A DNA stretch of 64,000 nt, taken from Candidozyma auris. Taxonomy: Eukaryota > Ascomycota > Pichiomycetes > Serinales > Metschnikowiaceae. Below the pieces are notes generated by a model. The model had not been told where the DNA came from. It made no database searches and was given only the letters and a program-made list of their open reading frames with translations. A program made the translations under genes and the position numbers. The stretch lies in assembly GCF_003013715.1 (NCBI RefSeq), contig NC_072812.1, forward strand, positions 1,984,001 through 2,048,000, written 5' to 3'. Below, piece after piece: positions 3,792 to 62,134 of the stretch. Every line of letters starts with the position of its first letter. Position 1 is the stretch's first letter.

Positions 3792-3801
3792 TGGCTGCGA
3801 A
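3792..3801 (+). promoter_or_regulatory. TGGYTGCRAA motif upstream of NAM2
   Basis: TGGCTGCGAA, continuing AAAGA, begins just after the CTF3 stop and 117-126 bp before the NAM2 ATG. The same 15 bases recur upstream of CCM1 (9129). Confidence 0.5.
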
Positions 3802-3917
3802 AAAGAAGCAGTACAAGAGACGATATTCCTGCACTGCGCGCTTATAGTATCAAGAATTCTACCGCGACAACGGCTGAAAATATAGCGCTAGACAACAGTC
3901 TTAGAAAATTAGAGCGA

Positions 3918-6698
3918 ATGTCACAAGGATTGACGAGGGCGTCCTTCTCACTAGGCATTGCTCGCTCTTTTGTATCCTCTTCACATCCTCAAACACAGCT
4001 CAAATTAAACGAAATCGACAAGAAGTGGGTACAGAAATGGAAAGAGTCACCTCCAAGATCCAACGACAACCAAAATTCAGCAAAACAACGAGAGCTGTTT
4101 TACTGTCTATCGATGTTTCCCTACCCTTCTGGTGTCCTACATTTGGGGCATCAGCGAGTATACACGATTAGTGATGTCATTTCTCGTTTCAAGAAATTAA
4201 AAGGATACGACGTTATACATCCGATGGGCTGGGATGCCTTTGGCTTGCCAGCAGAGAACGCTGCCGTCGAGCGTGGAATCAATCCTGCTGTCTGGACTGA
4301 AACGAATATCAGTAAAATGAAGGATCAAATGGAACTAATGCTAGCTGATTTTGATTGGGATAAAGAGATCAATACCTCCTCTCCAGATTACTATAAGTGG
4401 ACGCAGAAGATCTTCACACTTCTTTTCAAGCATGGCTTGGCCTATAGAAAAGGCGCAGAAATCAATTGGGACCCTGTGGATCAGACAGTGTTGGCTAACG
4501 AGCAGGTCGACTCGGAGGGCAGGTCCTGGAGATCGGGTGCTAAAGTTGAGAAGCGTACCTTGGAGCAATGGTTCATTGGGATCACTAAGTATGCAAGCGC
4601 TCTTCAAAAGGATCTAGCTTTGCTTGATCATTGGCCAGAAAAAGTGAAAGCGATGCAAAGAAACTGGATCGGTGAAAGCCACGGTGCCAATATTCGGTTT
4701 CCTTGCAATGGTGCCCATCAAGATTCCATCACTGTATTTACCTCAAGACCAGATACGTTGTTTAGTGTTCAGTTCATTGCTCTAGCTTTGGATCATCCAA
4801 TTGTCAAAAAACGTGCGGAGACTGACAACAAATTGGCAGAGTTCATAACGTTGATGAAAAAGGATGATGATCCAAACTCCAAGAATGGGTTTAAGCTTGA
4901 AAGCGTAAAAGCCTCAATTCCCATTGATGTACACGGCTCGCCAAGCCTTCGCTATGACATTCCAGTTTACGCCGCCCCGTACGTCTTAGGATCATATGGT
5001 TCAGGTGCTGTTATGGGTTGTCCAGCTCATGATGAACGCGACAATGACTTTTGGGACATCCATCAGCCAGGTGTTCCCGTGAGACCAACAGTCGGACCTT
5101 CCAAAAAGGAGAAAGCAGCAGCATTAGATGGCTTGTTTACTCAAAAGGAAGGAAAGGTTTATGATTCGACTGTTTTAAAGGGTGGGGTTGACGACTTAGG
5201 TGAACTTTCTGGGATGAAATGTACTGATGCAGGCAAGAAGATCCTGGAATGGCTTGAATCAACCAAAAACGGTGGCCACGCTGTACAATTCAAGATTAGG
5301 GATTGGCTTATTTCCAGGCAAAGGTATTGGGGAGCTCCAATTCCAATAGTTCACTGTGACCTGTGCGGGCCTGTAGCCGTCCCTGATGAAAAGCTCCCTG
5401 TTTTGCTTCCACCAATTGACGGTAAGAGCTTCGGTAATGGCAATCCTCTTGACAAACTCGAGTCCTTCATTCACACGCAGTGCCCTTCGTGTGGTGGTCC
5501 AGCTAAGCGTGACACAGACACCATGGATACTTTTATTGACTCGTCATGGTACTTTTTCAGATACCTTGACACCCACAATGACAAAGCAATATTTGACACC
5601 GAGAAGGCGACCCGCAATATGCCTGTCGATCTTTACGTGGGAGGTGTGGAGCATGCTATTTTACATCTTCTCTACTCCAGGTTCATTGCTAAGTTCTTGG
5701 GCGACATTGGATTGTGGAGTGGAAGCGAAATGAACAATGAACCAATTAAAAGACTCGTTACTCAGGGTATGGTTCATGGCAAAACCTTCACTGATCCTGA
5801 GAATGGAAGGTTTTTAAAACCAGATGAGTTAGACTTCTCAGACCCTAGCAAACCCAAAATAAAAGCTAGTGGCCTACTTCCCAGTGTGAGTTATGAAAAG
5901 ATGTCGAAGTCGAAATATAATGGGGTAGATCCGGCAAAGTGTATCGAAACATATGGTGCTGACGCCATAAGAGCCCATATTCTCTTCTCAGCCCCAATCT
6001 CCGATCAACTCAATTGGAATGAGGACCAAATACAGGGAATCGAAAGATGGCTTAAAAAGGTTTTGAACCTAAAAGAAGCGGTGATCAACATCGCATCAAA
6101 AGATCATGTTTCTCCTGCTGGAGGAATAGAATACAAGGACATCGAAATTGATGGTGTCACCTACGATAAAATCGTACTTACTGAAACCGAATTGCAGTTG
6201 TACAACGACATACGTCACTACACGAATAGAATTGCGAAATCGGTTGACGTTGACCTATCCTTCAACACCATCGTTTCAGATTATATGAAAATGACGAATG
6301 CCTTGTATAATGCGATCAAGCAAGACTCCATAAACCCTGCATTAGTGCTTGACGCGTACAAGAAACTCTTGATAGTGATGTCTCCGGTCACACCTGCGAT
6401 TTCAGAGGAGTGTTGGGAGGGCTTGGCCAAGAGTATGGGGAAGCAGGTTAGCTCCGTTCTAGAACAAAGGTTTCCTTCCTCTAAGCCCATAGCTTCTCCA
6501 TACACAAACTTTAACGTCTTCGTTGATGGAAAGGCAAGACACACCATGCAAGCGCTCCGTTCACTAGCTTCCGAACCCGATGAAAAAGTTCTTGATATTG
6601 CACTTGCAGAACCCAATGTTAAGAAATTTGTGGATGAAAGAACTATCAAGAAGGTAATTATAAAGGAGGGACTCATCAGCATCATCACTTGTAAATAG
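3918..6698 (+). CDS. NAM2: Mitochondrial leucyl-tRNA synthetase
   Basis: This 926-residue class I aminoacyl-tRNA synthetase charges mitochondrial tRNA-Leu; in yeast it also helps splice mitochondrial group I introns. The signature HLGH is at residues 75-78, GWDAFGLPAENAA follows shortly after, the editing domain (TSRPDTLF and the GAVMGCPAHDERD block) is in the middle, and KMSKS is at 661-665. The N-terminus, rich in Ser and Arg with few acids, looks like a mitochondrial presequence. The frame is open upstream to 3729, but only from a GTG; the first ATG is at 3918. Codon 482 is CTG inside a CxxC zinc-binding pair, where Ser fits better than Leu. The gene converges on CCM1, with 47 bp between the stops. 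Confidence 0.95.
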   Translation: MSQGLTRASFSLGIARSFVSSSHPQTQLKLNEIDKKWVQKWKESPPRSNDNQNSAKQRELFYCLSMFPYPSGVLHLGHQRVYTISDVISRFKKLKGYDVIHPMGWDAFGLPAENAAVERGINPAVWTETNISKMKDQMELMLADFDWDKEINTSSPDYYKWTQKIFTLLFKHGLAYRKGAEINWDPVDQTVLANEQVDSEGRSWRSGAKVEKRTLEQWFIGITKYASALQKDLALLDHWPEKVKAMQRNWIGESHGANIRFPCNGAHQDSITVFTSRPDTLFSVQFIALALDHPIVKKRAETDNKLAEFITLMKKDDDPNSKNGFKLESVKASIPIDVHGSPSLRYDIPVYAAPYVLGSYGSGAVMGCPAHDERDNDFWDIHQPGVPVRPTVGPSKKEKAAALDGLFTQKEGKVYDSTVLKGGVDDLGELSGMKCTDAGKKILEWLESTKNGGHAVQFKIRDWLISRQRYWGAPIPIVHCDLCGPVAVPDEKLPVLLPPIDGKSFGNGNPLDKLESFIHTQCPSCGGPAKRDTDTMDTFIDSSWYFFRYLDTHNDKAIFDTEKATRNMPVDLYVGGVEHAILHLLYSRFIAKFLGDIGLWSGSEMNNEPIKRLVTQGMVHGKTFTDPENGRFLKPDELDFSDPSKPKIKASGLLPSVSYEKMSKSKYNGVDPAKCIETYGADAIRAHILFSAPISDQLNWNEDQIQGIERWLKKVLNLKEAVINIASKDHVSPAGGIEYKDIEIDGVTYDKIVLTETELQLYNDIRHYTNRIAKSVDVDLSFNTIVSDYMKMTNALYNAIKQDSINPALVLDAYKKLLIVMSPVTPAISEECWEGLAKSMGKQVSSVLEQRFPSSKPIASPYTNFNVFVDGKARHTMQALRSLASEPDEKVLDIALAEPNVKKFVDERTIKKVIIKEGLISIITCK

Positions 6699-6745: not shown

Positions 6746-9025
6746 TCAAAAACCGTTTTCCATGACATATTTTTTATAATCACGTCTTCTTATCTTTCCC
6801 TCAAAATTGATCTGAGACCGCTTAGCAATTCCTCGAAGGGTCAGTGCTATCTTGTTATTACCAATCTCGACGGCTGCTTTGTATAATTGGGTAAAATGAT
6901 GTCTTTTCCACCTGAATTGATACTCCGTACTCATAATTATAGCAAGAGCATCATCGAAAAGACCAAATTGCGTCAAACAATTCACCATCGTTATGGCAAA
7001 ATCAAAATCAAGTTTATCTTTTTCATCCCTGGAGAGCTTGCTCCAGTGAACAGACTTACGATAAAGACCTCTTTCAGTCCACATAGTTTGAGCCATCGCA
7101 TAGTCATTACCCTTAGCTGCTGCTTTGAGGGCTATAAGGTAAGTGATTGTATTCCTGGGGACCTTCAATTGATTATTGGAGTGCTCTGCGAGTCTTTGAA
7201 GTGCCGGTGATTTAGCGAGGGCCGTGCTCTCACTTGAAGCTCTTTGATCAACATGCTGCGGCTCTTCAACCTCCAAACATTGCTCAGGCTCAATGATACT
7301 TCTTGTTCCCGGAATACCTTCACGGTCCAAGTAGGTGAACTGATTAAACCTATCGCGGAATTCCTCAAGCGTACCAATATTTGCAGCTATGTTAAGGAAT
7401 GTGTTTACACTTTCGATGTTGATCAACAGATTGTTCATCATCAACGAATGTGCCATGACAGCGCTAGATTCGGCCAAAACCTCTTTAGGTGAAGTAAAAG
7501 TTTGTATTGGCAAGAATGGAATTGCCTTTTGAGGATCATCCATTTTGGCTGTGAGGTCAGTGCTAGAGATGATGTTGTGACGGAAACGACGACCTGTGTC
7601 ATTAAACTCTATCATTGGGACGTCCGTATCAAGGGAAGCATTAGCATATGCGAGAAGAAGAAACGAAAATGAACGTGGATTGGCATTATTTGCCAAATTA
7701 AGCTGTTGATAAAGGACACGGGCTAGTGGTAAGTCACCATCTTTCAGGGCCAAATAGAGCATGTATTCGGCGGTGTGGACAGTAGGAGTCCAACCTCTCT
7801 TGTGTATCTCAAACATAAAATCCCACGCTCTTGCCTTAAGCTCATCACGACTGACGCACCCCCTTGCCAATGCAACCAAAATTTTTTGATTGACTTCCAC
7901 CCGATTAGTTAGCATCTCCTGGTACAAGTCTAACGCCTTTTCGATGTCGTCATTATTGACGTAACTAACAATGATGTCTTGGTACTCACGGGTTGACGGC
8001 TGCGTCTTTTGCAGAAAGAACTTCATTGAGTCGAAGAGCAGGACTGCTGTGGCATGAGACTTAGTTTTGTAGACACATGTGGCAAGGACGTTGGAGTAGA
8101 CAACTTTCAGGGGTTCCAAACCTTGTTCTTTCATTTCGGTGATAACGGCATTCACCTTATCGATGTTGGAGTTTTTTCCGTATGCTTCCACCAAGATCTC
8201 ATATGACTCACGACCAAGCTTTCCCTTCTTATTGAGCTGTCTGATAGTGTCTATGCACTTCTCAACTTCTTGCATTTCAACCCGGTCAACTGAGTTGCGG
8301 TGAATAACACTTCTCATATATGCATTGATTATTTTGGGAGATTTTTGCATCCCTGCTGCTTCCAAGAGTTCCTCGATCTTTGGAAATATGTATCGAAGTT
8401 GATCTCTAGGCACAGCATACACAAGCTTGCGGACATCTCTCTCCGGGAGATCTTTGAATCCTCCCTCCTTCTCAAGTTGATATAACAATAAGTCCCAGTT
8501 TTGATTCTCTTGAGTGAGAAGATATTTTACCGAGAGGCCAAGTTTATCCCTGATGGTGTCTGGTAGCTCCACTGCTGGAGTGGTTTTCTCAAATTTGAAA
8601 ACCACTGAGTTGTCGTCATTCTTTTCTTGGTCTGTGAATGTGATGTTTTCTTTACTTCTTATTGCTTGATAAATTTCGTCGGCTTTCTCCTCAATGGGCA
8701 GGGATTCCTCGATAAGCTCTGTTTCCTCAATGTGGCCCCCACGAGTAGCCAAAGTCTTATGCTGTAGGTACTGATTTACACTTTTTGTAAGGTTCTTGAA
8801 CTCTTTTATTCGTCTGATATGCTCCAAATGCTGTGCTTTTTCTTCTTTTGAGGGTGTCCTCTCACGTACCTCAGGCACTCGTTTTGCCGGTAGCTTGGGC
8901 TTTGCAGCAGGCCTCCTTGGTCGCATCTTTCTTTCACTGCTCATGACGAAGATGCCCCTCCGAGGTATCAAGTCCTGTACGGAGAGTCGACCAAAATTCC
9001 CACAAAGAGGTCGTAGACTAGACAT
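6746..9025 (-). CDS. CCM1: Mitochondrial PPR protein Ccm1
   Basis: The product is 759 residues (yeast Ccm1 is 864). Ccm1 is a pentatricopeptide repeat protein needed in mitochondria for removal of group I introns of COB and COX1 and for 15S rRNA stability. The start is basic and Arg-rich, typical of a mitochondrial presequence. The block LGLSVKYLLTQENQNWDLLL (near 160-180) followed by LVYAVPRDQLRYIFPKIEEL resembles the conserved N-terminal region of Ccm1. Degenerate PPR helices follow, for example near residues 270-430 with patterns such as YEILVEAYGKNSNIDKVNAV. The ATG at 9025 is followed by no better candidate. It is convergent with NAM2 and in tandem with DPH6. Confidence 0.82.
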   Translation of the reverse strand: MSSLRPLCGNFGRLSVQDLIPRRGIFVMSSERKMRPRRPAAKPKLPAKRVPEVRERTPSKEEKAQHLEHIRRIKEFKNLTKSVNQYLQHKTLATRGGHIEETELIEESLPIEEKADEIYQAIRSKENITFTDQEKNDDNSVVFKFEKTTPAVELPDTIRDKLGLSVKYLLTQENQNWDLLLYQLEKEGGFKDLPERDVRKLVYAVPRDQLRYIFPKIEELLEAAGMQKSPKIINAYMRSVIHRNSVDRVEMQEVEKCIDTIRQLNKKGKLGRESYEILVEAYGKNSNIDKVNAVITEMKEQGLEPLKVVYSNVLATCVYKTKSHATAVLLFDSMKFFLQKTQPSTREYQDIIVSYVNNDDIEKALDLYQEMLTNRVEVNQKILVALARGCVSRDELKARAWDFMFEIHKRGWTPTVHTAEYMLYLALKDGDLPLARVLYQQLNLANNANPRSFSFLLLAYANASLDTDVPMIEFNDTGRRFRHNIISSTDLTAKMDDPQKAIPFLPIQTFTSPKEVLAESSAVMAHSLMMNNLLINIESVNTFLNIAANIGTLEEFRDRFNQFTYLDREGIPGTRSIIEPEQCLEVEEPQHVDQRASSESTALAKSPALQRLAEHSNNQLKVPRNTITYLIALKAAAKGNDYAMAQTMWTERGLYRKSVHWSKLSRDEKDKLDFDFAITMVNCLTQFGLFDDALAIIMSTEYQFRWKRHHFTQLYKAAVEIGNNKIALTLRGIAKRSQINFEGKIRRRDYKKYVMENGF

Positions 9026-9128: not shown

Positions 9129-9138
9129 TGGCTGCGAA
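9129..9138 (+). promoter_or_regulatory. TGGYTGCRAA motif upstream of CCM1
   Basis: TGGCTGCGAA, continuing AAAGA, lies 104-113 bp upstream of the CCM1 ATG in the 130-bp gap between DPH6 and CCM1. Relative to CCM1 it is on the opposite strand. Confidence 0.5.
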
Positions 9139-11096: not shown

Positions 11097-11835
11097 CTGG
11101 ACGTTTTAAGGCCAGTGCTTCTCAGTGCAATCCTTATCCAGATATCGCGAACCTTAATATGCATAGATAACTGAAGACACGGCAGCCTATGAGAGGAAGT
11201 TAAACTTGAAGTTAGTAAAAAGGCATGGCAGGGGAGGATTTAGGTGAAAATTTAAGAATTGAGTCTTTTCATTGGAAAATTTGAGATGAATTGAGTGCAA
11301 AGACGCGTACATGTCAGTGACTTCAATTGGCTGCAAATTATGGTTGAGACTATACACAAGCTATTAAGAGAGCTATAGATTACGTCGAGCTTGCTCCTTT
11401 ATTTCACTATTCCGTGAAAGCAGGATCTTCGAATTTATTAGCCCAACAATATTGAGGTTTCTGTTGATCTAATAAAGTAAACCATCGAAATCAAGTTCTA
11501 ACGCCCACATACCAATTTATACAATCTTTGTTAACGTATTCTGAAGTCCTGGTTATTCAGCGCACTAGAATCTACTCAAAAAAAGGGAAAACAACAAGAT
11601 TATGCTTCTTATACTCCGACAGTCGTAGTACCCAAATACCTCTAGCCAGACTGAGCTTAACGCTCGCGCGCAGTTAAGTGAGGACTGGAGAGCTCTAAAA
11701 AAAAGTGGGCTCCATCGACTCGTTTGGGACACACACGACCAAAGTAAATTTTTCACCATCTTTTTTCGCACTATAAGTATGCTGGCATTCCCTCTTTCTA
11801 AATTTTTTTCCTCTCATCCCCAGAACTAAGTCAAC
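11097..11835. other. Divergent intergenic region DPH6/RPS9
   Basis: This 739-bp region must hold both promoters. I see one copy of the recurrent motif (11328-11337), AT-rich tracts and a pyrimidine-rich stretch just before the RPS9 start. No open frame here looks coding, and no RTCACGTG box was found. Confidence 0.5.
11328..11337 (+). promoter_or_regulatory. TGGYTGCRAA motif between DPH6 and RPS9
   Basis: TGGCTGCAAA lies 232 bp upstream of the DPH6 ATG and 499 bp upstream of the RPS9 ATG. Confidence 0.45.
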
Positions 11836-18762: not shown

Positions 18763-19430
18763 ATGTGCGCTACTACTGTCTTTTGGTAGGAGCCATGTGT
18801 GGGGACAATATATGATAAGTGCGATGCGAATGCGGAAATCACCGAGAGGAAACGCTGCGGGTGAAGCTTCTGCCTGTGAGATAAGAGACAAATTGCTTGA
18901 ATTTTTCTCTTTAATCGAGTTATGCTTATTCAATTAGGTTTTTAGAGAAGCTTCGATTCAACATTCTTGTCTCTTCCAAATCTAAAATGATATTTATTGT
19001 TTCCTCAGAAGGTTGGCTTTTTTGCAGCCAATCTGAGAACAGACGCAGTCATCACTGGCAAACTTCACTCGACATTAAATGATAATAACTTTAGGCACTT
19101 GAATAATAAAATCAAACGACTTTAACTTTTTTCATATATAACGTTCTCGTAACCAAATTTTAGTCTTGATCAAGTTACATAAATGTGCACAGCTACGATC
19201 GGCTACATAGTAGTATAGGGGAGACTGGAGATGTTGTTGACAAATATGTGATATGTATATATTCGCCTCTTTCAACCCAATCATCTCTTTATTATTTTAG
19301 ACATAGGATATATGAAAGGGAGTCGCTGTAAGACTAGGTGCTGCGTACTGCACATGTAAGTTGATCTACCTACTCGATGAGATGCGATAACACTTTTCAC
19401 TACATAGAGCATTATTACTACTAGAAACTG
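18763..19430. other. Divergent intergenic region NEL1/LOC1
   Basis: The region is 668 bp and AT-rich in the middle. It contains the recurrent motif at 19021-19030 on the minus strand. A TATA-like ATATGTATATAT lies near 19250. I see no additional gene. Confidence 0.4.
19021..19030 (-). promoter_or_regulatory. TGGYTGCRAA motif between NEL1 and LOC1
   Basis: TGGCTGCAAA on the minus strand, 259 bp upstream of NEL1 and 401 bp upstream of LOC1. Confidence 0.45.
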
Positions 19431-21289: not shown

Positions 21290-21299
21290 TTTGCAGCCA
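21290..21299 (-). promoter_or_regulatory. TGGYTGCRAA motif upstream of PCP1
   Basis: TGGCTGCAAA on the minus strand, in the same orientation as PCP1 and 286 bp before its ATG. Confidence 0.45.
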
Positions 21300-22190: not shown

Positions 22191-22262
22191 ATCGCAGGAT
22201 CCGCACCAACACAATCAAATTTTTGAAAAAAATGTCCACCAACTTATCATCATCCATATATA

Positions 22263-22601: not shown

Positions 22602-22718
22602 GCGAGTTATTCCACATTCCATACCATTAATACATCAAGCATAGAACTTTGATTTGTAGAAAGAGGTTGTGTCCATCGTCAGTGAAGAAGAGTCTGTAAG
22701 CGAAGGTATTCGCTTGGA

Positions 22719-22728
22719 TTTGCAGCCA
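22719..22728 (-). promoter_or_regulatory. TGGYTGCRAA motif
   Basis: TGGCTGCAAA on the minus strand, 118 bp after the P1 stop. Confidence 0.4.
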
Positions 22729-22979: not shown

Positions 22980-22989
22980 TGGCTGCAAA
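22980..22989 (+). promoter_or_regulatory. TGGYTGCRAA motif
   Basis: TGGCTGCAAA on the plus strand, in gene-free DNA between P1 and the acidic protein gene. Confidence 0.4.
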
Positions 22990-23420: not shown

Positions 23421-23756
23421 CACCTTTGACTTCTTACTTCACTAGCCACCAGTCAACAGAAATCGGGCCGGTGTAGAGCGGTAAAAGTTGGAGCCAGGCG
23501 TCCAGATAGCCGGTCGTGTACTATATGTGGCAAGTGTTGCTAGTTTCTAGATCCGAGCAACGGTTGCGAAAAAGATATGGATCGCATACGCATCAGGCAA
23601 GACGTCAGATCCACACTGGCAACGAAAACCGCAACCTCAAAAATACCCAGGCTAAGAAGCCAAGGTCTTGTAGCGTTTCCCACAGAGATCCTAGAATTTG
23701 AGGCGAAGCACCGGTGCCCTGAGGCAGCCGGGGTAGAAGACATTACTCGAGCACTT

Positions 23757-23766
23757 TTTGCAACCA
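23757..23766 (-). promoter_or_regulatory. TGGYTGCRAA motif
   Basis: TGGTTGCAAA on the minus strand, about 890 bp before the ATG of the acidic protein gene. Confidence 0.4.
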
Positions 23767-26115: not shown

Positions 26116-26125
26116 TGGCTGCAAA
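26116..26125 (+). promoter_or_regulatory. TGGYTGCRAA motif in a convergent intergenic region
   Basis: TGGCTGCAAA, 642 bp past the stop of one gene and 704 bp past the stop of the other. It is not upstream of any gene I recognise. Confidence 0.4.
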
Positions 26126-28303: not shown

Positions 28304-28313
28304 TTCGCAACCA
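28304..28313 (-). promoter_or_regulatory. TGGYTGCRAA motif
   Basis: TGGTTGCGAA on the minus strand, same orientation as the tail-anchored gene, about 890 bp upstream of it. Confidence 0.4.
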
Positions 28314-33092: not shown

Positions 33093-35705
33093 TCATTGCA
33101 CGGCCCTTACAATACGCTCAAACAACGTGTCCAATGCAATTCCGTCGATGTTCGTGAAAATAGGCTCAATGTGTGCGAGATCAAGAAGACGCTGAGAGGT
33201 CCATTTTTCGGTATCATTAGTGTCATCTACTTCAAGACCCGCCAGACCATCCACGGAACGTGCGTGCAACACATTAGCTGCTGCTTGGGCGTTTACCAAC
33301 AAATTGTTCATCTGCTCAGCCAAATTCTCTGTACTGTCCAAATCTCTGGCGACAGGACTTATCAACGAGGCACGAGAGGCAGAATCAACGAAGACAAAAC
33401 CAGAAGGCAGAGCAGTTAACGAAACCACCAATTGCTTATGCACAATTTCGTGAACTGGACTGAGCCTACTTGGTGAGAAGATCAGGATTTTGCAACCAAA
33501 ACCCTGACCTTCGTATGGCTTGGGCTGGTTCACTGCAACAGCTATTATGTTCCTCAGGGTATCTGCGGCTATCAAGTTGCGTGCACCATAGTCGAGAAAC
33601 TTAACTGCCAATGAAGTCTCCTCACCTTTCACAAGGTCAAACAGCAACACCAGCGTTGCCAGTGCAAGAACAAGATGAGACTCCAAGAGAGCCACGAACT
33701 CCACTGGAGCAGAAAGACGTGGGAACGTGAAATCAACAGGCTCAAGCAGTTGTGGATCGTACGCTTTCGTTTCTGTATTATGACTGACAACCAAGAGAGA
33801 AGAGTCCGTAGCCCAAGCAGCTGCCACTGGAGCAGGGGCCAGTGCTGAGGGAGGAAGAGCACGACGAAGAGTCCACACAGTTTGAGACCTTGTGGCCGCC
33901 GTTTTTCCTTTAGCATTGTTGCGAGTAGCAGCGGGACGAGGACGCCAGATACGCACGCCACCATGAGAGTCCACAGTGGCGACAATTTCTGAAGTCGGCA
34001 GAACAACAATGGCACCAACAACAAGACCTGGACCATGAGGATCAACTATCTTCAGCGCAAGGTGCCATTGAGAATCCTCGGCTGACCAGGACCAAAACTT
34101 AAGAGCAAACGCCGTATCGTTCTTGGAAAGAAGATTATCCAAGTCAGACTTGGGCATCAGATCGAATGTACACATCCATTTACCGTTCTTTGTGAATGCA
34201 AGCTTTTCAACCTGAGGATCCACAATCTTGTGTTCGCTCTTGACTCTACCGATATCGAGCTGAGGTGCAACATGTTGAATGAAAGCTTGTTCACCACGGG
34301 CAAGATCGAATGCTTGAATAGACAGCCCGTTTGGGAGGTAAAGATGATTCGTTTTAAAGTTGACCATAGTGAGAGCACTAATATCCGGCCTAATGAAGTC
34401 ATATTTCTCGAGAATTCTAGGCTTTGAGTTGACTTGTTTTTGGTCCTCTTCGTCCTCATTCCCGCTCTCTTCATCGCTGTCGTGGGCTCCAACTACTTCT
34501 TTTTTCTTCAAATACTGACGAACTTTACGTCTGAATGTATCTGTAGTTGATGTCATCTGTGGGCGACATGAGGAAACCGCAAGACGAGATACAAGGTCCA
34601 CTGCAGAAATCACGACAATTTCACTTTGGGCAAGATTTACTGCACCGCTTCCAACGGCTATGGGTGAAAGCATAATGTTGTACACGTCAGGGCGGTTTGG
34701 GTCAATAGAAATAGCAGTGATAGAACCACTAAGACGAGGCAAAAACTGCGTTTTACCCAGCTCAAGGTTCCAAATGACCAATACTTTCTCTGAACCTCCC
34801 GAAATAAGATATCTCTGATCAGCTGAAAAAGCAACGTCGTGAGCGCCCTCAAAATGCCATTTCAACGCACGCTGATTTCCGCTATCATCTTTACTGTCCT
34901 TTCTGTCTCGCTCCTGAGGATACAAAAGGTAGATTGGTCCATGAGTGGAAGCAACTGCCGCGATGCCCTGATCACTCACAGCTAATGCCAGAGCTGGAGG
35001 ACCTGAATAATTCATCACGAGCCTTGTTTGATCTAAAACGTCATTCACGGAGGCAGATGACGTTGAGCCATTTTGGAGATGACTTTTCAGCTCCAGAGTT
35101 ATGTGTCTCTTCATCATTTGCACGCCCACTTTTAGGTCGTAAATTAGTACATGACCCTTTTTCGACACTGCCAAGTGGTTTCGACTTCTGGAAACTCCAT
35201 ACTTATATACATTGGGGACGGTGAGCATGCGATGAGAAATGCCGGTCTCTTTCTCGATTTGATACACATTAAGCGTTTTTGGACCATGTTCAGATGCAAA
35301 ACTTTGCTCTGAAAAGAGCCCAATGCCATAGTAGCTGGTATCATCAATCAAAAAAATGTCCTGTAGATGCAAGTTTCCTGGAGTGATGTGCTGCCTGGCA
35401 ACTACTGGATGTGCCACATTTTCCTTCCAATTGACGTAGAGTACTTTTTGTTTTGAAGTGAAAATGATAACTTGACAGTCATTTTCGTCATCTATAAAGG
35501 CAGCAATGGCATCATGAATATCCAAGTCTACCACACGAACACACTGTCTTGTGGAGTTGTAGTAGACTCTGATTTGGTACGCAAGAAGCACGATAGTGTG
35601 GGTCCCGTCTTTCGAAGAAACCGCTGGAAAAGTCAGCCCTTGCTTAAAAGGGATAGGAGATCCTCCTGACGACACAGTAACACGCCAGGATCTGGGAAGC
35701 TTCAT
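33093..35705 (-). CDS. NAN1: U3 snoRNP t-UTP subunit Utp17/Nan1
   Basis: The product is 870 residues (yeast Nan1 is 896; human WDR75). It is part of the t-UTP (UTP-A) subcomplex of the small-subunit processome, which couples rDNA transcription with pre-18S processing in the nucleolus. Two WD40 propellers are expected; visible repeat signatures include VAFSADQRYLISGGSEKVLVIWNLE and IVATVDSHGGVRIWRPR. A linker of charged residues (about 400-440) with an acidic DSDEESGNEDEEDQ segment separates them. The ATG at 35705 begins MKLPRSWRVTVSSGGSPIPF. It is divergent from RPB10 across 335 bp and convergent with MGM1 (90 bp between stops). Confidence 0.87.
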   Translation of the reverse strand: MKLPRSWRVTVSSGGSPIPFKQGLTFPAVSSKDGTHTIVLLAYQIRVYYNSTRQCVRVVDLDIHDAIAAFIDDENDCQVIIFTSKQKVLYVNWKENVAHPVVARQHITPGNLHLQDIFLIDDTSYYGIGLFSEQSFASEHGPKTLNVYQIEKETGISHRMLTVPNVYKYGVSRSRNHLAVSKKGHVLIYDLKVGVQMMKRHITLELKSHLQNGSTSSASVNDVLDQTRLVMNYSGPPALALAVSDQGIAAVASTHGPIYLLYPQERDRKDSKDDSGNQRALKWHFEGAHDVAFSADQRYLISGGSEKVLVIWNLELGKTQFLPRLSGSITAISIDPNRPDVYNIMLSPIAVGSGAVNLAQSEIVVISAVDLVSRLAVSSCRPQMTSTTDTFRRKVRQYLKKKEVVGAHDSDEESGNEDEEDQKQVNSKPRILEKYDFIRPDISALTMVNFKTNHLYLPNGLSIQAFDLARGEQAFIQHVAPQLDIGRVKSEHKIVDPQVEKLAFTKNGKWMCTFDLMPKSDLDNLLSKNDTAFALKFWSWSAEDSQWHLALKIVDPHGPGLVVGAIVVLPTSEIVATVDSHGGVRIWRPRPAATRNNAKGKTAATRSQTVWTLRRALPPSALAPAPVAAAWATDSSLLVVSHNTETKAYDPQLLEPVDFTFPRLSAPVEFVALLESHLVLALATLVLLFDLVKGEETSLAVKFLDYGARNLIAADTLRNIIAVAVNQPKPYEGQGFGCKILIFSPSRLSPVHEIVHKQLVVSLTALPSGFVFVDSASRASLISPVARDLDSTENLAEQMNNLLVNAQAAANVLHARSVDGLAGLEVDDTNDTEKWTSQRLLDLAHIEPIFTNIDGIALDTLFERIVRAVQ

Positions 35706-38315: not shown

Positions 38316-38325
38316 GAATAATAAG

Positions 38326-38335
38326 TGGTTGCAAA
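38326..38335 (+). promoter_or_regulatory. TGGYTGCRAA motif beside the CPS1 ATG
   Basis: TGGTTGCAAA, only 11 bp upstream of the CPS1 ATG and so probably in its 5' leader. On the strand opposite to CPS1. Confidence 0.35.
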
Positions 38336-38613: not shown

Positions 38614-38623
38614 TGGCTGCAAA
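38614..38623 (+). promoter_or_regulatory. TGGYTGCRAA motif upstream of CPS1
   Basis: TGGCTGCAAA, 299 bp before the CPS1 ATG. Confidence 0.45.
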
Positions 38624-40347: not shown

Positions 40348-40359
40348 TGTGGAAAGGTG

Positions 40360-42806: not shown

Positions 42807-44664
42807 AGTACCCCTGCTTTTTCTTAAAGCTACCCGTGTATAGACGCATAATAATGAACTATTTAATAGAACGAACGCAGTGCAGGAAATGGCTTCCACC
42901 TTTGATGAAAGATGGCAGAACAAGATTGATTATTTTGTAAGGATATCAAGGCGGTTCACAAACATGTCGAAAAATTATCGCTACACATTAAGCCGAGGCA
43001 ATTACTTAAGGTATACACCCAGGGTGAAGAAAAGAAGAATAGACCTATTTCGAGAGCAATATCATTGTGAATGTGAAATACGCTAAAATTTAACCCTGAT
43101 ACATCTTTGTAACCATGCATCTTGTGATACCAGGCATGATATATAGTCGACAGAAGAGAAATCTACTGTTTGGTGCCTTTCATGTTTCATGAGGGTGAGG
43201 ACGATTGGTATTCGGGAACAACTCGACCAAGAATACCCTGGGTGGAAGCAGCCAAAACTTCCAGGCCCGATGCAATTGTTTTAAATGCCCCGTTCTTCTG
43301 GACACAACATACAAGATTTCAAGACGTCAAATTGAGTTTGTCACACATCACATACTAGAAGAGAAAGAAGCGACAGCTCGGAAACGATCACCAAACTTTT
43401 TTTTTCTGCTCCCGGAAATCAAAGCGGGCAACTTACTCGGTTTCCCCTAGGGGGCATTGACAGAAGCATGAATGTCCAATTTCAATGAGTCTGTTGTATG
43501 GTATTCCACTTGGCTCAGGACCACCAATTTTGGAGGCAGCCACTATGGAATTGAATAAATAAAAAGTAATCAAGTAACAAATTGATCTCTAGGCGTCACT
43601 GGTTGAATTCACTTAAAAAAAAGGCTTTCATTTTCACTCCACATCATTTATGCCTCTCGTATATTGTGATACTCATATAATTGGATACCGTTTTTGATTC
43701 CTTCACCCTTTGAAGCACTCATTACTAGGGAACCCACCCTAGCACGCATTGAGCGTATAGAAAGTTGAATGAGCAAGCGAATGATTAATTGCGATGTATC
43801 AGCTGAATAAGCAAAACTACGGTCTCCTCGTGAAAGGTTGAAATTTATCCTGGGTCTCTCTCGGGGCGCCGCAAAAGTTCACGACGCTATGAAGGGCCCT
43901 TCATTCAATGAATCAGCTTATCCTTCCTCGGCTAATTGGATTTGAAGAGCTTTTCAAGGCAAAACTTCGATGATTAAAGTGGTTTGAAGCGTCTAGTAAA
44001 AAGGACGCCAAAAGTTCATATCGCTTCGTGGCTGCACTACAAGACTTCTCACTTTCTAGGCTAAGACTTATCCAAGCCCTCCTTTGTTTCGGGGATTTAC
44101 TACTGATTTTGCTCTACGATATTCCAAATGGGCAATCCAATCGTCTCGTTTAGGCACAACTATGGATTTGACTGTTCATATTGAGAAATTCTGCTTCGAA
44201 ATCATAATCGAGCTCTCTTGGTTCCAGGTCCGACCAACAATCGTGTCAAATAAGGTTTGGGGTATGAGAGCTGTCGGAGCAAAGTCATTGCTGTGTAGCA
44301 CTCAACTTTGAAATAAACAAAAACAAAAGCCTCGGGTCCCAGGAGTTATACCAAGAATAGAACGAGTCATTTGAAATGCTCTCATTGAACTACATTCATC
44401 AATAGATCGAGGAGGCGCGACCTTCAGGGGAACGGCTGCAAAAGCCACCGTGTTATGCATACTGATCTAAATATACTAGTCATCTCAAAATACTTCAGGT
44501 AGAGACACACGGTCACCCTTGGCCGGTTGCGGATTTTGCCTACGGAGATACTTCGGCTCCTACGTGACCCGTTGATGACTGGTCAATGATTCTATATATA
44601 GTAGTTTGACGAAGTATATAAAATGAATGCTTTTGCTCCTCAACAACTCGCGTGGTAAAACAAC
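42807..44664. other. Gene-poor region before the secreted protein gene
   Basis: 1,858 bp. Open frames near 42889-43086 and 44084-44311 lack recognisable features. A near-match to the recurrent motif, CGGCTGCAAA, is at 44434-44443, and TATA-like sequences lie near 44,594 and 44,615. No tRNA or repeat element seen. Confidence 0.45.
44614..44621 (+). promoter_or_regulatory. TATA box of the secreted protein gene
   Basis: TATATAAA-type sequence about 44-50 bp before the ATG at 44665; a second candidate, CTATATATAG, lies about 20 bp further upstream. Confidence 0.5.
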
Positions 44665-46853: not shown

Positions 46854-47319
46854 AAGGTGGACGAAGGTACAAAGGAGGGAATAACGGAGAGGGTCGCTGG
46901 TATTCTTTTTATTGGATAGGAGACTGGAAACCGCCTATATGTATGCGTCGCTGAAACCTTGGAAGAAAAAAAAAAGTGTATGCTTTGGGTCCGGAAAGGA
47001 AGTTTGAGATAAGATATGCGAGATAGGTTGGTGGGGAGGGCACACACTGAGGAAGAGAAAAAAAAATACAGTGCTGAGACCAGTAAAAAGCACACTGGCA
47101 GACGTTGAGAGTATGAAGGAAGTGCGAAAGAGAAAAAAAAAAAATGTCTGGCAGTGCCTCTGTCAGAGGGGAAGGCGGAGACCCAGGAGGAGACTGGCGG
47201 GAGCAAAGACTATACCAAAAGAAATAGCCCCTTAAGGTGCATTGATCTCATTGGATTTCATGCTCGGATCTTTGAAGTTCCCGCTCCTCGCATCACTCAC
47301 AATAGGCGTTCTCATTTTG

Positions 47320-47352
47320 CTCTCTCTCTCTCTTTCTCTCCCTCTCTCTCTC
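47320..47352 (+). repeat. CT-dinucleotide tract
   Basis: About 33 bases of nearly pure TC repeat, interrupted by single T and C insertions. Confidence 0.9.
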
Positions 47353-47564
47353 GTCTTTCGCATCTCTTCCTGCCTCACCTCGTTACTGCTTCTGGAGTTC
47401 GGTCTTGTGACTGGCACATTGTTCTGGAGGCATTGTTGAAATGGGATGACGTGCGGATTACGGTACCGAACGGCAATTGTCTGTTTGTTTAGTGAATGTG
47501 ATGCCAGTTGCCAAGGGTGTTGTTGCTCAGCTGTCTGGCCTGGAGGGAGCATTACACTGTGGGA

Positions 47565-47574
47565 TTTGCAACCA
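47565..47574 (-). promoter_or_regulatory. TGGYTGCRAA motif upstream of PGS1
   Basis: TGGTTGCAAA on the minus strand, same orientation as PGS1, about 710 bp before its ATG. Confidence 0.4.
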
Positions 47575-47917: not shown

Positions 47918-47927
47918 TGGTTGCGAA
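47918..47927 (+). promoter_or_regulatory. TGGYTGCRAA motif
   Basis: TGGTTGCGAA, about 1,065 bp upstream of PGS1 and 270 bp beyond the YLF2 stop. Confidence 0.35.
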
Positions 47928-48197: not shown

Positions 48198-49433
48198 TCA
48201 TCTCGACTTTCCTCCAGCGGCCTTGACCACTAGCACGTCTCCGTCCTCTATAATGTATGCTTTGCCTTGGCGGTATTGCTTTCCTTTCGATTTTAGATTT
48301 GCCTCGTCTAGGGGTGCATCTTGCTTCTCCAAGTCCTCCCATTTGTACACTTGTGCAGAGATAAATGTCTTCTGCAAATCCGTATGAATGGCTCCCGCTG
48401 CTTCTGGGGCAGTGGTGCCCTCTCTGACAGTCCATTGATGAGCCTCCTTGGGCCCACAAGTGTAGAAAGACACAAGTCGGAGCGCTGCCCTCATCTTGTC
48501 GACAATTTCACCCATAGCACTGCCAGCATTGTTAAATTCGCTCATGTAGCTTGCTAGCAGTTCAGGATCGTCCCTCAACTCATTGAGCTTTGTCTCATAT
48601 GCTGCTGAAAATAACATCATCTCGTCCTGTGGACAATTTTCATCGATCCATGCTTGTACGGCTTCCTTGAACTCATTAGTGTTGCTCAGGTAATCCTTCT
48701 CATTGACATTAAGCAACACCACTGTGGGCTTCGCAGTGAGAAGGTTCAACGGATTGATTACCTCAATCTCCTCACTGGTCCACTCCCCAGTAGTAACCTT
48801 CATACCCAGGTACAAATGATCCAGGAGCTTACTAAGAGTGTCAATTTCGAATTGAATACGTTTGCGATCCACCTGTGGCTTCCTCAACGTCTTCTGAGCT
48901 TGCTCCAAAGCAGTTTCGATGTAGTCCAAGTCCTTAAGGATAAGCTCATCCGTGACTATGGTTAAGTCCCTCACTGCATCCACATTGGTCTCGACGTGTG
49001 TGATGTCATCGTCTCTGAAGCCCCTCACCACATGAAATACACCATCCACTTGCCTAATGTCGGACAAAAATTTGTTACCTAGTCCTTCACCCAGCGCGGC
49101 GTTTCTTGTGAGACCTGCGATATCGTAAATAGTCATGGATGTGGGCACCTTCTTCGCTGATCCATATAACTGCTGAAGATGATCTAGCATTGGGCTTTGA
49201 ACAACCACTTGTGACATGCATGGGTCGATGGTTGCGTATGGATAGTTGGCAGGCTTCCCTAAGCTTGATCTGGTAATGGCTTGAAAGAACGTAGATTTTC
49301 CAACGTTTGCAAGCCCTACCACGCCCAGCGAGAGGTTATTACTCACTCTCCCAAGCTGGCTTTGCTTAGCTGCCAGAGCCAGCTTTTTTGCATGACGAAT
49401 TGCACTGGTTGCAAAATTTCTTATTTGCTTCAT
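48198..49433 (-). CDS. YLF2: Mitochondrial YchF/Obg-like ATPase
   Basis: The product is 411 residues (405 in yeast YHL014C/Ylf2). YchF proteins have the Obg fold but prefer ATP. The P-loop GLANVGKS is at 40-47, DIAGLTRNAALGEGLGNKFL is the switch region, and the NKxD of GTPases is replaced by NVNE, as in the family. The C-terminal TGS-like domain contains YTCGPKEAHQWTVREGTTAPEAAGAIHTD. The first 30 residues are basic and Ser/Ala-rich, which supports the mitochondrial paralogue rather than cytosolic Ola1. The frame opens at TTG (49454); the first ATG is 49433. A match to the recurrent motif lies within codons 7-10. Confidence 0.9.
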   Translation of the reverse strand: MKQIRNFATSAIRHAKKLALAAKQSQLGRVSNNLSLGVVGLANVGKSTFFQAITRSSLGKPANYPYATIDPCMSQVVVQSPMLDHLQQLYGSAKKVPTSMTIYDIAGLTRNAALGEGLGNKFLSDIRQVDGVFHVVRGFRDDDITHVETNVDAVRDLTIVTDELILKDLDYIETALEQAQKTLRKPQVDRKRIQFEIDTLSKLLDHLYLGMKVTTGEWTSEEIEVINPLNLLTAKPTVVLLNVNEKDYLSNTNEFKEAVQAWIDENCPQDEMMLFSAAYETKLNELRDDPELLASYMSEFNNAGSAMGEIVDKMRAALRLVSFYTCGPKEAHQWTVREGTTAPEAAGAIHTDLQKTFISAQVYKWEDLEKQDAPLDEANLKSKGKQYRQGKAYIIEDGDVLVVKAAGGKSR

Positions 49434-51641: not shown

Positions 51642-51651
51642 TTCGCAGCCA
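51642..51651 (-). promoter_or_regulatory. TGGYTGCRAA motif upstream of GBP2
   Basis: TGGCTGCGAA on the minus strand, 262 bp before the GBP2 ATG. Confidence 0.45.
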
Positions 51652-53935: not shown

Positions 53936-54907
53936 TGGCATGTCTACGAATGAGTCGGAAGCCTCGGATTGTGGAAAAGTGCGAAAAACGCTCGTCAAGG
54001 GATAGAATGATCTTGATTTATGCTTCAAATCTGGTTATCGACGGGAGAGTGGTTTAATTCTATATGGTATAACAGGTTTCCGCTGGGGCTAGTGAGATGG
54101 GGTTGAGTGCGGTGTTCTGCTAGCAGTAATTTGAGCGGAGGGTTCTATGATTGGAATCTTCTCAATCAACGCAAGTTCGCAAGTACCGAAAATATGTCTC
54201 GTTCAAAGCCTGCTGTGTTTATTGTGAGAATTCACGGCCCAGCTAACGTATATGGTGTCAGAACAAAATTCTGGGCCCGCAAGTAGTCCACAAATATATG
54301 CTAGATACTATTATTCAGGCGCCTAATAGGGCGCCGCCTCTGGAATGCCAGCAATTCTTTTCTATTTTCTCTTTTTTCACTGGTGGTCCCTTTTAACTGC
54401 CAGGATTCTTTCATTGGTTGCAAAATTCAACAAATGCCCTTAGAAGGCTTTTACAAAAAATGAAAACTCCCAATCAATGAGAAAATGCGGGTAAAAAAAC
54501 GATCTGGAACACTTTCCTCATCCATCTAGCACCGACTTATATTTCATTTCAAAAGACTCTTCGATTTTCCTAATTGTGCTACATCGCCTTCCTCCGAGTA
54601 GCGTACTTTAGACCTGTCGCATTAGCGAGGAATAATCATATATAATGCACTTCCGAAATGGAAACATCATATACATAGAAAAAAAAACAAATATATTTCC
54701 TACGACTTCATAGGGTTTTCTACCTTTTCAATGCATGACACAAAATCTTTCTCTTTCGTTCGTCACAAAGAAACGCCTCTACGTGATTGACAATCATTGT
54801 TTACATTATCGCCTAATGTGGAAATCGTATCAATATCATCAAATGTATGTACATGTACTCTAACTACAACTCCATCTGACAAACCAAGTTGGACTCTTTT
54901 TTAGAAT
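53936..54907. other. Intergenic region UPF0357/BUD3
   Basis: 972 bp, AT-rich towards BUD3, with the recurrent motif at 54415-54424. A-runs near 54680. No gene seen. Confidence 0.45.
54415..54424 (+). promoter_or_regulatory. TGGYTGCRAA motif upstream of BUD3
   Basis: TGGTTGCAAA, 484 bp before the BUD3 ATG. Confidence 0.4.
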
Positions 54908-57900: not shown

Positions 57901-58852
57901 TGATGTTATGCTCGATACAGTGGTTGACCGTGTTTTGGAAAGCAAGGAAGCTGCTCCTCAGTCCCCACAGTATAGAGTCACTCAAGGGAAGAAGTTGTTT
58001 TCTGAGAGCGGAATTCCATCGAAACCAAAGAAGAGAGTTTTCCTGAGTCAAGACATTGCGAATGCATTGGAACAGATCAATGCAGCTGGAATATCTCCAG
58101 AAACGTACGCAAAGTACAAAAAATATGAGGAACTACCTACCGTCGATTTTTACAGTGACGGGGAGGCAAACTGGATAACTATCACAAGGGAGGATTCTTC
58201 CAATTTGGCAAGAGAAGTACGAGCCATGAAGGAGGAAGCCAATATGGACACATTGGATGTGATTGACGTTGGCAATGCCGGATCTCCGTTGAGAATGACT
58301 CCACAGAAAATACGCTACAACACCAGTGATGGTACCATTTCAAGCACTGATAATGATGGCATCGACGAGAATTTAAGTCAAGACACAGTCAAACTTCAGC
58401 CACCTCAACCACCAGCTCATAACGTTCTTCCTACAGAAGAGTCTCAAGAGTCCCTTAGCTCATTCCAATACATGAGTGAGTTTGGAAGAAAGTTGGATGA
58501 GGGTTTCCATCTTGAGGATCTGTGGGACCAGAGGTCTTTGCCGTTTACTGTAGACACCTTGGTCGTGGAAGAAAAGGAGGAGCCAGAGAACAAGTCCACC
58601 TCTGACATGCATTCGCTTACCGTCTCATCAGAAGAGTACTTCTCGCCAGAAGAGTACATGAGTGCATTAAAAAGTGAGCTTTTTCCCGAGGAAGTAGATG
58701 TTGGCCACACCTTAACCCTGTCTTCAAGTGAGAAGACACTTATGAATGTTGCAAGGGAGTTTGAGAAGGCAGATGACGACAACGGATTTCAAATAAAGTT
58801 CGATTCGGTCGCCTATCTTTCGGATATTCTTAATGGCACCGTCAAGATCTAA
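54908..58852 (+). CDS. BUD3: Axial bud-site protein Bud3 with a RhoGEF-like domain
   Basis: The product is 1,314 residues (1,636 in yeast). Bud3 associates with septins at the bud neck, marks axial bud sites with Bud4, and acts as a GEF for Cdc42 in early G1. The N-terminal region (about 1-200) and a helical DH-like domain (about 240-430, with EICRINCILHDSLTRARKYG and LRNFHSRLSKFLEKESKLM) precede a PH-like part (about 465-700). The second half is Ser-, Pro- and Glu-rich and poorly conserved. Gene position between UPF0357 and the LEU2/NFS1 pair matches YCL014W. The ATG at 54908 is the first in frame. Confidence 0.9.
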   Translation: MDIYKRYASGEHDREFFAKHNNNELIKLRPLLGQFDNVDAKSVSRPVLYWQAIFPQAAFFAGYDHELFGHVVTVVYKNEVTSKLSAVSITKYGCNVYENLLLDVRLRFWPACENLDEKHKDSNVRRALAIANLKNHNQLHNNSESFHSRWDETNAGALASSMDVLTGKVPVELGEKLLQLGLLQDHWVSSMLVDVVYDSKTPLNGENTIEENNKLVFALGKQMDQLFDPLLEYSPQAMDYHYVIPQHPVPTVLQNNVQVNKVLDELFDVQANYAMDLIAILQDLINPLRAKVLSSKSSLGIQKVNLIFPPTIDEICRINCILHDSLTRARKYGYVEVFHVFENILPYFYKAFIRHEANLRNFHSRLSKFLEKESKLMSSPEINRRKFSARSIEAIVSGSILELPRLKLILKRLHSLIEMEKARYKDIEQANNSEAPILDKAFNTCVEIIDSFGYNEQEQEPSTKNRVFTPSGKLLTEIATEWPNELQYGWINRKVIGVHEMKEVISTPASSQILIIFSDSLLFLDLFLNETDSSLLVPSVLMNSLINEKPLPKLSQFPQLKVKFWCPVTDVIAQGYQFQDETFLSFMAFGESEFRDRNGSPQNLVQTFKVVDCAEHSITSSLQKAKVLQKTTSFHLFSDQEGGILRLYCAHERHAYKSEASTAPIVILLNLNHDEIERLFNDHPHVYLVLNASFLNHHTVHISGHDRSGKYKVEEIVGIADLRESVREMLSQAIDAFYHSSHFSNVVIQGYEKSLAYFADSYAKETLGKAILKVAKDMPSGQEMNKITSESLTAGEQERNVSGRSRNISAERSKPLKNYGEPNADSENLSVEAASTCMPKLFLLSLFHKLGKKKRKTPRKSVPADIRVKESEKKVPGTENPCGKKQVYESIYKPVPTLRESSISSAPVSEREPQHRSLSTNTGSSSHYTNTSLQVQSNFQFPPGPAVENAITDGSHSKPATLPVKRVVSTVHEEGQIPDDQLPNTTITDINLSDIEKNDVMLDTVVDRVLESKEAAPQSPQYRVTQGKKLFSESGIPSKPKKRVFLSQDIANALEQINAAGISPETYAKYKKYEELPTVDFYSDGEANWITITREDSSNLAREVRAMKEEANMDTLDVIDVGNAGSPLRMTPQKIRYNTSDGTISSTDNDGIDENLSQDTVKLQPPQPPAHNVLPTEESQESLSSFQYMSEFGRKLDEGFHLEDLWDQRSLPFTVDTLVVEEKEEPENKSTSDMHSLTVSSEEYFSPEEYMSALKSELFPEEVDVGHTLTLSSSEKTLMNVAREFEKADDDNGFQIKFDSVAYLSDILNGTVKI

Positions 58853-60322: not shown

Positions 60323-61726
60323 TTAATGGCCACTCCACTCAATGGTGTTCAAGTCAATACCTTCTTGCACCATCTCCCACAATGGAGACATCTTTCTCAA
60401 GAAGTCAACTCTTTCGTTGATGGCACGCACAACGTAGTCAATTTCTGCCTCAGTGGTGAAACGGCCAATACCAAATCTGATGGAAGAGTGGGCCAAGGCA
60501 TCGTCAGCACCCAAAGCATGCAACACGTATGAGGGTTCCAAAGATGCAGATGTACAAGCAGAACCTGACGAAAGAGCAATGTCTTTCAAAGCCATGAGCA
60601 ATGACTCACCTTCAATGTATGCAAAAGAAACATTCACACAGCCAGCATACTGCTTGCTTGGGTCAGACAAGACTCCGTTGAATTGGGTCTCTGGGATGGA
60701 CAACAAGCCCTTCTTCAACTTCTCCGAGAGTCTCTTGATGTAGGCCTGGTCGTAAGCCATATCCTTTTTCATAAGTCTGGCAGCCTCACCGAAACCACAC
60801 ACCAAAGGTGGCGCCAATGTACCTGATCTCAATCCTCTCTCCTGACCACCACCAGTGATGATCGGATCCAATCTCACTCTTGGACGTCTTCTCACGTAGC
60901 ACGCGCCAATGCCCTTGGGCCCGTAAATCTTATGAGAAGAAATGGACAACATGTCGATGTTCATCTCGTTGACATCAATTGGAATCTTTCCGTACGCCTG
61001 GACTGCATCGGTATGGAAAAACACCTTGTTCTCTCTGCAAATTTTACCAATTTCCTTAAGCGGCTGGATCACACCGATTTCGTTATTAACAGCCATCACG
61101 GACACAAGGGCAGTGTCCTTTCTGATAGCCTTCTTCAAATCCTCCAAGTTGATTAACCCTTCGTTGTTAACTGGCAAATAGGTCACTTCGAAACCCTCGT
61201 CTTGCATATGTCTTGCTGAGTCCAAAACACACTTGTGCTCTGTCTGTGTTGTGATGATGTGTTTCTTTGTCTTCTTGTAGAATCTAGGCACACCTTTGAT
61301 GCACATGTTGTTCGACTCGGTCGCACCAGACGTGAATATGATTTCCTTTGGATCAGCGTTTATCAACTCAGCAACATGGCTACGGGCTTTTTCCACCTCC
61401 TTCTCAGTCTCCCATCCGTAAGCGTGGGTAGAAGAATGAGGATTTCCGTATAAACCCGTGTAAAACTGTAACATCTTGTCCAACACACGAGGATCCGTTG
61501 GAGTCGTAGCTTGCACGTCCAAATAAATGGGTCTTGTACCGAATTTGGAATCATCTCTCGTTGCCAGCTTCAACGATATCAGAGAACCTTCAGGAGCAAC
61601 CGCCACTTCTGGAGGAGTCGGAACCGCTGTGGCTAACGAACGAGCTGTGGAGCGAGCTGGGACGCTTGTGGAGAGAGACCTGACGGCCTTCAAGGCAAGC
61701 CTTGAACGTCTTATATTCGACAACAT
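60323..61726 (-). CDS. NFS1: Mitochondrial cysteine desulfurase
   Basis: The product is 467 residues (497 in yeast). Nfs1 takes sulphur from cysteine with PLP for Fe-S cluster synthesis and tRNA thiolation; mainly in mitochondria with Isd11 and Isu1. The PLP lysine is Lys266 in [10 protein letters not shown], and the persulphide cysteine is Cys391 in [10 protein letters not shown]. The C-terminus [19 protein letters not shown] is near-identical to yeast. The first 35 residues are Arg/Ser/Ala-rich, an import signal. It is next to LEU2, as in many yeasts. Confidence 0.98.
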
Positions 61727-62134
61727 ATTGTGATGTGCTGTTGATGAGTAAAAAAAAGAAGTAATATAAAGATGAGTAGAACTGAGCTGATGAAGAGTGA
61801 CCCACGGTGCTTTTTTTAATGCTCTTTTTTTGTTCCGTTATACTAATTAGTAAGAAGTGAGAGTCCTTTTTTTTTGTATGCCGAGATTCAGTCCGTACGT
61901 CGTGCGATGCACACCTGATAGATTATGGAACAGAAGCTGGCAAAGGCTAAGGAAGAAGTATGTAGCAATTTGGCTAGCTTGGGAAAACAAATATCCTCCA
62001 CCAACGAGTGAAATGAAGAATAAATTCTCGCCATAAAACACTTTTCAAATATCTTATTGTCCATTGCCACTCACGGATGCTCCCATGCATACAAATTTCG
62101 CAGCCAATATTCCGTATCTTAGTAAAAGGCTCTA
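61727..62134. other. Intergenic region NFS1/PET8
   Basis: 408 bp holding the NFS1 promoter and the PET8 3' end. T-runs at 61811-61830 and 61866-61876; recurrent motif at 62097-62106. No gene seen. Confidence 0.45.
62097..62106 (-). promoter_or_regulatory. TGGYTGCRAA motif upstream of NFS1
   Basis: TGGCTGCGAA on the minus strand, same orientation as NFS1 and 371 bp before its ATG. Confidence 0.45.

Follow-up and report, generated by a model that had tools for sequence, protein, structure and literature searches.

A 64,000-nucleotide stretch of the genome of the yeast Candidozyma auris (contig NC_072812.1, positions 1,984,001 to 2,048,000; called the window here, with coordinates counted from its first letter) raises the question of what the ten-base word TGGYTGCRAA does there. 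A preceding reading of the letters alone, the sequence-only reading, had listed 19 exact copies and had considered a general regulatory factor (GRF) site as one explanation. The answer favored here, with a probability of about 0.72 on the analysis described below, is that a slightly wider form, TGGBTGCRAAW (B = C, G or T), would be bound by a single sequence-specific protein that is abundant and acts as a GRF in this yeast. The question is of interest because C. auris is a yeast of great medical concern whose regulatory DNA is dominated by a single word of ten bases, and the motif provides a concrete handle on the protein that would bind it and on when and how a general factor may have been replaced.

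The window contains exactly 19 exact copies of TGGYTGCRAA, all those of the sequence-only reading, while 100 dinucleotide shuffles of it gave a mean of 0.85 and a maximum of 3, close to the earlier hand estimate of about 0.5 by chance. The form TGGCTGCGAA is found 121 bp upstream of an ORF with leucyl-tRNA synthetase domains (3792..3801, forward strand; ORF 3918-6698), 108 bp upstream of that of a PPR protein (9129..9138, forward; ORF 6746-9025), 766 bp upstream of an ORF with RRM domains (51642..51651, reverse; ORF 52413-53387) and 375 bp upstream of that of a class V aminotransferase (62097..62106, reverse; ORF 60323-61726). The form TGGCTGCAAA lies 236 bp upstream of an ORF with a diphthamide synthase domain (11328..11337, forward; ORF 9156-11096), 290 bp upstream of a rhomboid ORF (21290..21299, reverse; ORF 20111-21004) and, in a divergent promoter, 263 bp from an ORF with Sec23/24 domains (16276-18762) and 405 bp from an ORF with no Pfam hit (19431-20060) (19021..19030, reverse). 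It also occurs twice in the gap between the short and doubtful ORFs 22215-22622 and 23577-23888 (22719..22728, reverse, and 22980..22989, forward) and 303 bp upstream of an M20 peptidase ORF (38614..38623, forward; ORF 36609-38315), which has in addition a copy of TGGTTGCAAA only 15 bp upstream (38326..38335, forward). The latter form is present 488 bp upstream of an ORF with Bud3 domains (54415..54424, forward; ORF 54908-58852) and 17 bp upstream of the short ORF 47232-47552 (47565..47574, reverse), in a gap shared with TGGTTGCGAA (47918..47927, forward). The other copy of TGGTTGCGAA (28304..28313, reverse) is in a divergent gap, where the upstream distance is 895 bp for ORF 26829-27413 and 474 bp for the short ORF 28783-29088.

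Three copies of TGGTTGCAAA are located inside ORFs: one in NAN1 (33489..33498, reverse; ORF 33093-35705), which is probably a chance copy, one near the 5' end of ORF 48198-49433 (49406..49415, forward), less than about 30 bases from its first ATG, which may be upstream of its gene should translation in fact begin at a later ATG, and one in the doubtful 103-aa ORF 23577-23888 (23757..23766, reverse). The sequence-only reading had counted 17 intergenic and two coding copies; its two coding assignments, 33489 and 49406, hold, and the copy at 23757 joins them, so that, for ORFs of 100 aa or more, 16 copies lie between them and three inside. Its statement that most copies lie 100-500 bp upstream of genes agrees with the distances, as 12 of the 15 sites with a downstream ORF are 100-500 bp from the nearest ATG, two are closer and one is at 766 bp, some of these ORFs being short and doubtful. 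The exception to promoter placement which it had pointed out, a TGGCTGCAAA copy far from any start (26116..26125, forward), does lie in a convergent gap, of 1354 bp (25475-26828), between ORFs of at least 150 aa, and the one-mismatch copies which it had reported are both present, CGGTTGCGAA at 23561..23570 and CGGCTGCAAA at 44434..44443, both on the forward strand. In the convergent gap, neither a stop-to-stop frame longer than 131 codons nor an Rfam match was seen; an unannotated transcript in this 1.35 kb with its one motif copy is possible. A Pfam scan of ten window genes adjoining sites found domains of varied function in nine (e.g., tRNA synthetase, Sec23/24, Bud3, RRM and aminotransferase), a survey of site-adjacent genes only and not an enrichment test. 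Apart from the motif, the NAN1 of the window is 99% identical to a protein present on 269 contigs, 68% identical to its relative in Candidozyma haemuli and 66% to that in C. duobushaemuli, and a pair of tRNA genes for Gly and Asp, 11-12 bp apart (40277-40431), recurs at positions 3511-3664 of locus L015 with identical Rfam scores for both members.

The abundance of the motif is not peculiar to the window. The whole genome (12.25 Mb in 7 contigs, 45% G+C) contains 2,682 copies of TGGYTGCRAA, 1,367 on the forward and 1,315 on the reverse strand, versus 69 (36 and 33) for a control of identical base composition, the motif read backwards, which is an approximately 39-fold excess. Allowing any base at position 4 raises the two numbers to 3,269 and 129, or about 25-fold. 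Coding and intergenic DNA were compared in a 314-kb sample composed of the window, 50 kb of contig 4 and 100 kb from each of contigs 2 and 3, in which ORFs of at least 100 codons were called; short or spliced genes escape this threshold, and some of the ORFs that pass it are doubtful. Sixty-seven of the 77 copies of TGGBTGCRAA in this sample are intergenic and 10 are coding, with two and two for the reversed control; intergenic DNA makes up 30% of the sample, so the intergenic excess has a p of about 4e-25. When intergenic 8-mers occurring at least 12 times in 264 kb were ranked by over-representation, words of the motif came next below poly-A, and after masking of the motif and of A/T runs the top leftover words were Cbf1-like (GCACGTGA, 14 versus 2.3 expected). 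TGGYTGCRAA is a very strong genome-wide cis-element, a real and solid observation, and it is probably of the GRF type, a mechanism that we infer from its placement.

An iterated matrix gave T G G [C 64%, T 23%, G 12%] T G C [A 73%, G 25%] A A [A 57%, T 32%], and position 4 accordingly tolerates G as well (TGGGTGCRAA). The exact motif served as the seed of the matrix, which was then run on the sample it came from, and at its cut-off there were 168 hits versus 43 for the reversed control, so that its weaker members are partly noise. The informative core spans 11 bp, TGG[C>T>G]TGC[A>G]AA[A/T]; beyond this core there is a weak A two bases upstream, and no conserved flank was seen around the sites of the sampled DNA. 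A 15-bp form, which had been suggested for pull-down of binding proteins, is accordingly unsupported. Bases 4 and 8 are not independent: among the first 100 genome places listed, the combinations CA, CG, TA and TG occur 35, 38, 23 and 4 times, respectively, TGGT..G being the rare one (Fisher p 0.001).

With respect to genes, TGGBTGCRAA is promoter-proximal. In the 314-kb sample, 52 sites lie at most 500 bp upstream of the nearest ATG (0.97 per kb of available DNA) versus 9 beyond (0.31 per kb; p about 7e-4). Inside the first 500 bp no peak is visible, the density being 0.53 to 1.38 per kb over eight bins, and where tandem ORFs of 150 codons or more flank a gap, the sites in it are evenly spread, 15 being closer to the downstream ATG and 13 to the upstream stop. 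This lack of a sharp positional peak is unlike what is expected for a factor anchored to the transcription start site (TSS) and counts against the GRF reading. Also against it, the 33 convergent gaps between ORFs of the same minimum length contain five sites in 9.1 kb, and one in 3.2 kb when gaps longer than 700 bp are set aside; four of the five are in such long gaps, which may hide genes. Orientation is indifferent, with 24 sites pointing towards and 25 away from the nearest gene in 264 kb. At least one site is present in 47 of the 123 promoter gaps sampled, and the median gap length is 869 bp with a site versus 312 bp without; because site-free gaps are shorter, the presence of a site partly reflects promoter length. 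The density from the shortest to the longest class of gaps is 1.03, 0.71, 1.05, 0.86 and 0.53 per kb, that is, not higher in long gaps, and therefore the length effect is mostly one of opportunity. A poly-A/T tract is found within 100 bp of 41% of 61 sites versus 36% of matched controls, which is no clear effect, and the site flanks are AT-richer, which for nucleosome depletion is suggestive at most. One of the long gaps, of 1.6 kb (L029, 1412-3033), carries three TGGCTGCGAA copies upstream of a P450 ORF and has a PEP-carboxykinase-like ORF as a neighbor, both named by eye.

The copies are also arranged with respect to each other. Same-direction pairs of TGGYTGCRAA with a gap of 0-30 bp number 48 (26 and 22) at 37 places in the genome, with none for the control. 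The commonest gap is exactly 1 bp, i.e., a spacing of 11 bp, with 20 matches at 16 places where about 0.74 would be expected for any one gap length; five and three matches have gaps of 0 and 2 bp, and 20 have gaps of 3-30 bp, versus about 21 expected. Inverted pairs are rare, at one place tail-to-tail and at four head-to-head, where about 11.5 of each kind are expected (5 versus 23 in total). These expectations are derived from mean density only, with 87% of the sites distributed uniformly in 30% of the genome and clustering ignored. The 11-bp pairs could also arise by local tandem duplication; in several pairs the two copies differ from each other and the consensus is kept in both. Head-to-tail arrays of five copies exist at C7:589213 and C3:1751055. 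In array L041 a 282-codon ORF has five copies at its 5' end, and in array L042 six copies, including one TGGGTGCAAA, precede an ORF of 165 codons by about 50-110 bp; inspection of the two genes preceded by these arrays revealed no recognizable regulator.

On the explanation favored here, a single protein would bind as an asymmetric unit to promoter DNA, in both orientations and usually at most about 500 bp from the start codon. It would work at roughly 40% of promoters, whatever the function of the gene, keeping them clear of nucleosomes and giving other factors access, by analogy with Reb1, Abf1 and Rap1. Head-to-tail sites 11 bp apart, about one turn of the helix, could let several molecules line up along the same face of the DNA, and the members of a pair may be bound cooperatively. 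The GRF site of the sequence-only reading is in this sense the best fit, and what was found on abundance, on intergenic and promoter-proximal placement and on orientation independence, together with the mixed neighbors (the ten site-adjacent genes only), speaks for it.

The reader of such a site might be a known general factor, Rap1, Reb1/Nsi1, Tbf1 or Cbf1, with a sequence preference that drifted in this lineage, which is unlikely but deserves attention, as the specificities of Rap1, Tbf1 and Hmo1 do differ between S. cerevisiae and C. albicans according to PMC2834713, and the genome has a DNA-binding domain of Rap1 as well as 17 matches to the Myb domain. The consensus words of such factors were counted in the 314-kb sample. 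Those of Abf1, Reb1, Cbf1, Tbf1 and Mcm1 differ from the motif and are far less enriched: the Abf1 word has 20 intergenic copies versus 31 for its reversed control, the Rap1-core word 27 versus 39, Reb1 TTACCCG 9 versus 11 (with four in coding DNA), and the Tbf1 and Mcm1 words fewer than their controls. CACGAC of C. albicans, with 26 versus 52, is not enriched either. The exception is RTCACGTG, with 17 intergenic and four coding copies versus four and seven for the reversed word, and 893 versus 478 genome-wide; it is enriched as a separate word, and therefore Cbf1 seems to keep its own site, which speaks against drift of this factor. As for Nsi1, in C. albicans it binds TTACCCGG (Tebbji et al. 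2020, PMC7565893), a point against Nsi1 as the drifted factor. Rap1 was rejected as the owner of the motif, for the telomere repeat is still GGTGTCTGGGTTT, near known Rap1 sites and unlike the motif; repeats like TTAGGTGGTGTCTGGGTTTC were seen at five of the six contig ends read, with no motif copy inside them, and together with the Rap1 domain they are consistent with an ordinary Rap1. The repeats are about 20 bp long and CTTAGGTGGTGTCTGGGTTT-like with variable A runs (L030-L033 and L035). Abf1 was likewise rejected, its consensus not being enriched in the 314 kb; a Pfam search gave no match to Abf1, which does not show that the protein is absent. Word counts and telomere repeat together support the earlier statement that the motif matches no Cbf1, Rap1, Reb1, Abf1 or Tbf1 consensus.

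A rather unlikely alternative is a single specific regulator that controls a very large regulon, in place of a chromatin-organizing factor. Regulated genes tend to have long upstream gaps, as the gaps with a site are, and three sites each are present upstream of the P450 gene and of a presumably MIG1-like gene (L043). Such a regulon would have 2,682 copies in a yeast genome, next to neighbors without an evident common theme (judged partly by eye), and the length effect is, as described above, mostly opportunity. The proteasome element (PACE) of Rpn4, or a direct derivative read by Rpn4, is highly improbable. Rpn4 sites are GGTGGCAAA, and GRAGGCAAAA in C. albicans, as given in PMC526180; when aligned, TGGTTGCAAA is one base from the former, with GG..GCRAA common to both elements, but the Rpn4 core is GGCAA where the motif has TGCRAA. 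Five proteasome alpha-subunit genes were located by their N-terminal domain and the 400 bp upstream of that domain were read: RGTGGCRA is present in all five (about 2e-7 by chance with equal base use, not corrected, for one of five patterns tried), strict GGTGGCRA in one, C. albicans-type GRAGGCAAA in none and TGGBTGCRAA in none of the five (1.9 expected, P 0.14). Therefore, an Rpn4-type element seems to be intact and separate, and the loose resemblance to it that had been noted before is refuted as an identity; GGTGGCRAA, moreover, is not widespread, with three intergenic and three coding copies in 314 kb. The alpha-subunit promoters show that a known regulon is readable from this genome. In three of the five genes (L044, L045 and L046) a TACTAA branch-point-like sequence lies just 5' of the conserved N-terminal domain, suggesting introns near the start of these proteasome genes. 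An intergenic location would also suit a replication origin mark, i.e., an ORC recognition element, which is very unlikely on the numbers alone, 2,682 copies in 12 Mb being several-fold more than the few hundred origins of budding yeasts; besides, the core is not AT-rich and the density drops beyond 500 bp from start codons. Finally, the short arrays of five copies might recall a dispersed-repeat remnant, and an element acting at the RNA level is conceivable; the lack of a conserved flank at single sites speaks against the former and the equal use of both strands relative to the gene against the latter, and the odds of either are close to negligible.

The preferred reading, a GRF, calls for a binding protein. 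The genome has 38 C2H2 and 71 Zn2Cys6 matches besides the Myb domains, and their positions were compared by eye with the places of close pairs, a route by way of self-regulation, in which none of the three classes gave a match assignable as the binder. One C2H2 match (C2:1454117, L043) is near a close pair, with three sites upstream of its gene, which we take to be MIG1-like from its finger sequences, and another (C5:217269) is 2.4 kb from a close pair. MIG1-type fingers bind GC-rich sites, and the gene at C2:1454117 was dropped on this ground. Two Zn2Cys6 matches of the same score and frame length, 146 kb apart (C6:303433 and C6:449277), are possibly a recent duplication.

The motif was not found by name in open-licence PMC papers, supplements apart, either by motif string, where no yeast regulatory-motif title was among those listed, or by topic, as judged from titles and the starts of abstracts. 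The nearest precedent is the work of Tsankov et al. (2010; PMC2897762). As reported there, Abf1 is absent and the contribution of Reb1 reduced in the Candida clade, the dominant GRF changes between lineages, and candidate GRF sites are Cbf1-like and Rsc3-like in D. hansenii and CACGAC in C. albicans. The motif resembles these sites in the idea of lineages swapping their dominant GRF, and neither TGGC nor GCAGCC is found in the main text of that paper, Table S6 apart. Elsewhere, promoters are described as shaped by GRFs and RSC (PMC9481977), and the Mrr1 site of C. lusitaniae is given as CGGAGWTAR (PMC12607694). A more specific version of the favored reading, which is tentative and on balance doubtful, is that a GRF of the Candidozyma lineage with no orthologue among the characterized GRFs took over the promoter-organizing role of Abf1 and Reb1 and reads TGGBTGCRAAW at about 2,700-3,300 sites, some of them in head-to-tail stacks one helical turn apart.

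It is with the GRF sites of S. cerevisiae that the motif is best compared. Those of Reb1, Abf1 and Rap1 are short, over-represented, promoter-proximal and orientation-independent, and they precede genes of mixed function. The motif of C. auris differs from them in its sequence and in having no sharp positional peak here, and its copy number is greater than is known for any S. cerevisiae factor. Abundance, promoter proximity, independence of orientation and neighbors of mixed function are common to both.
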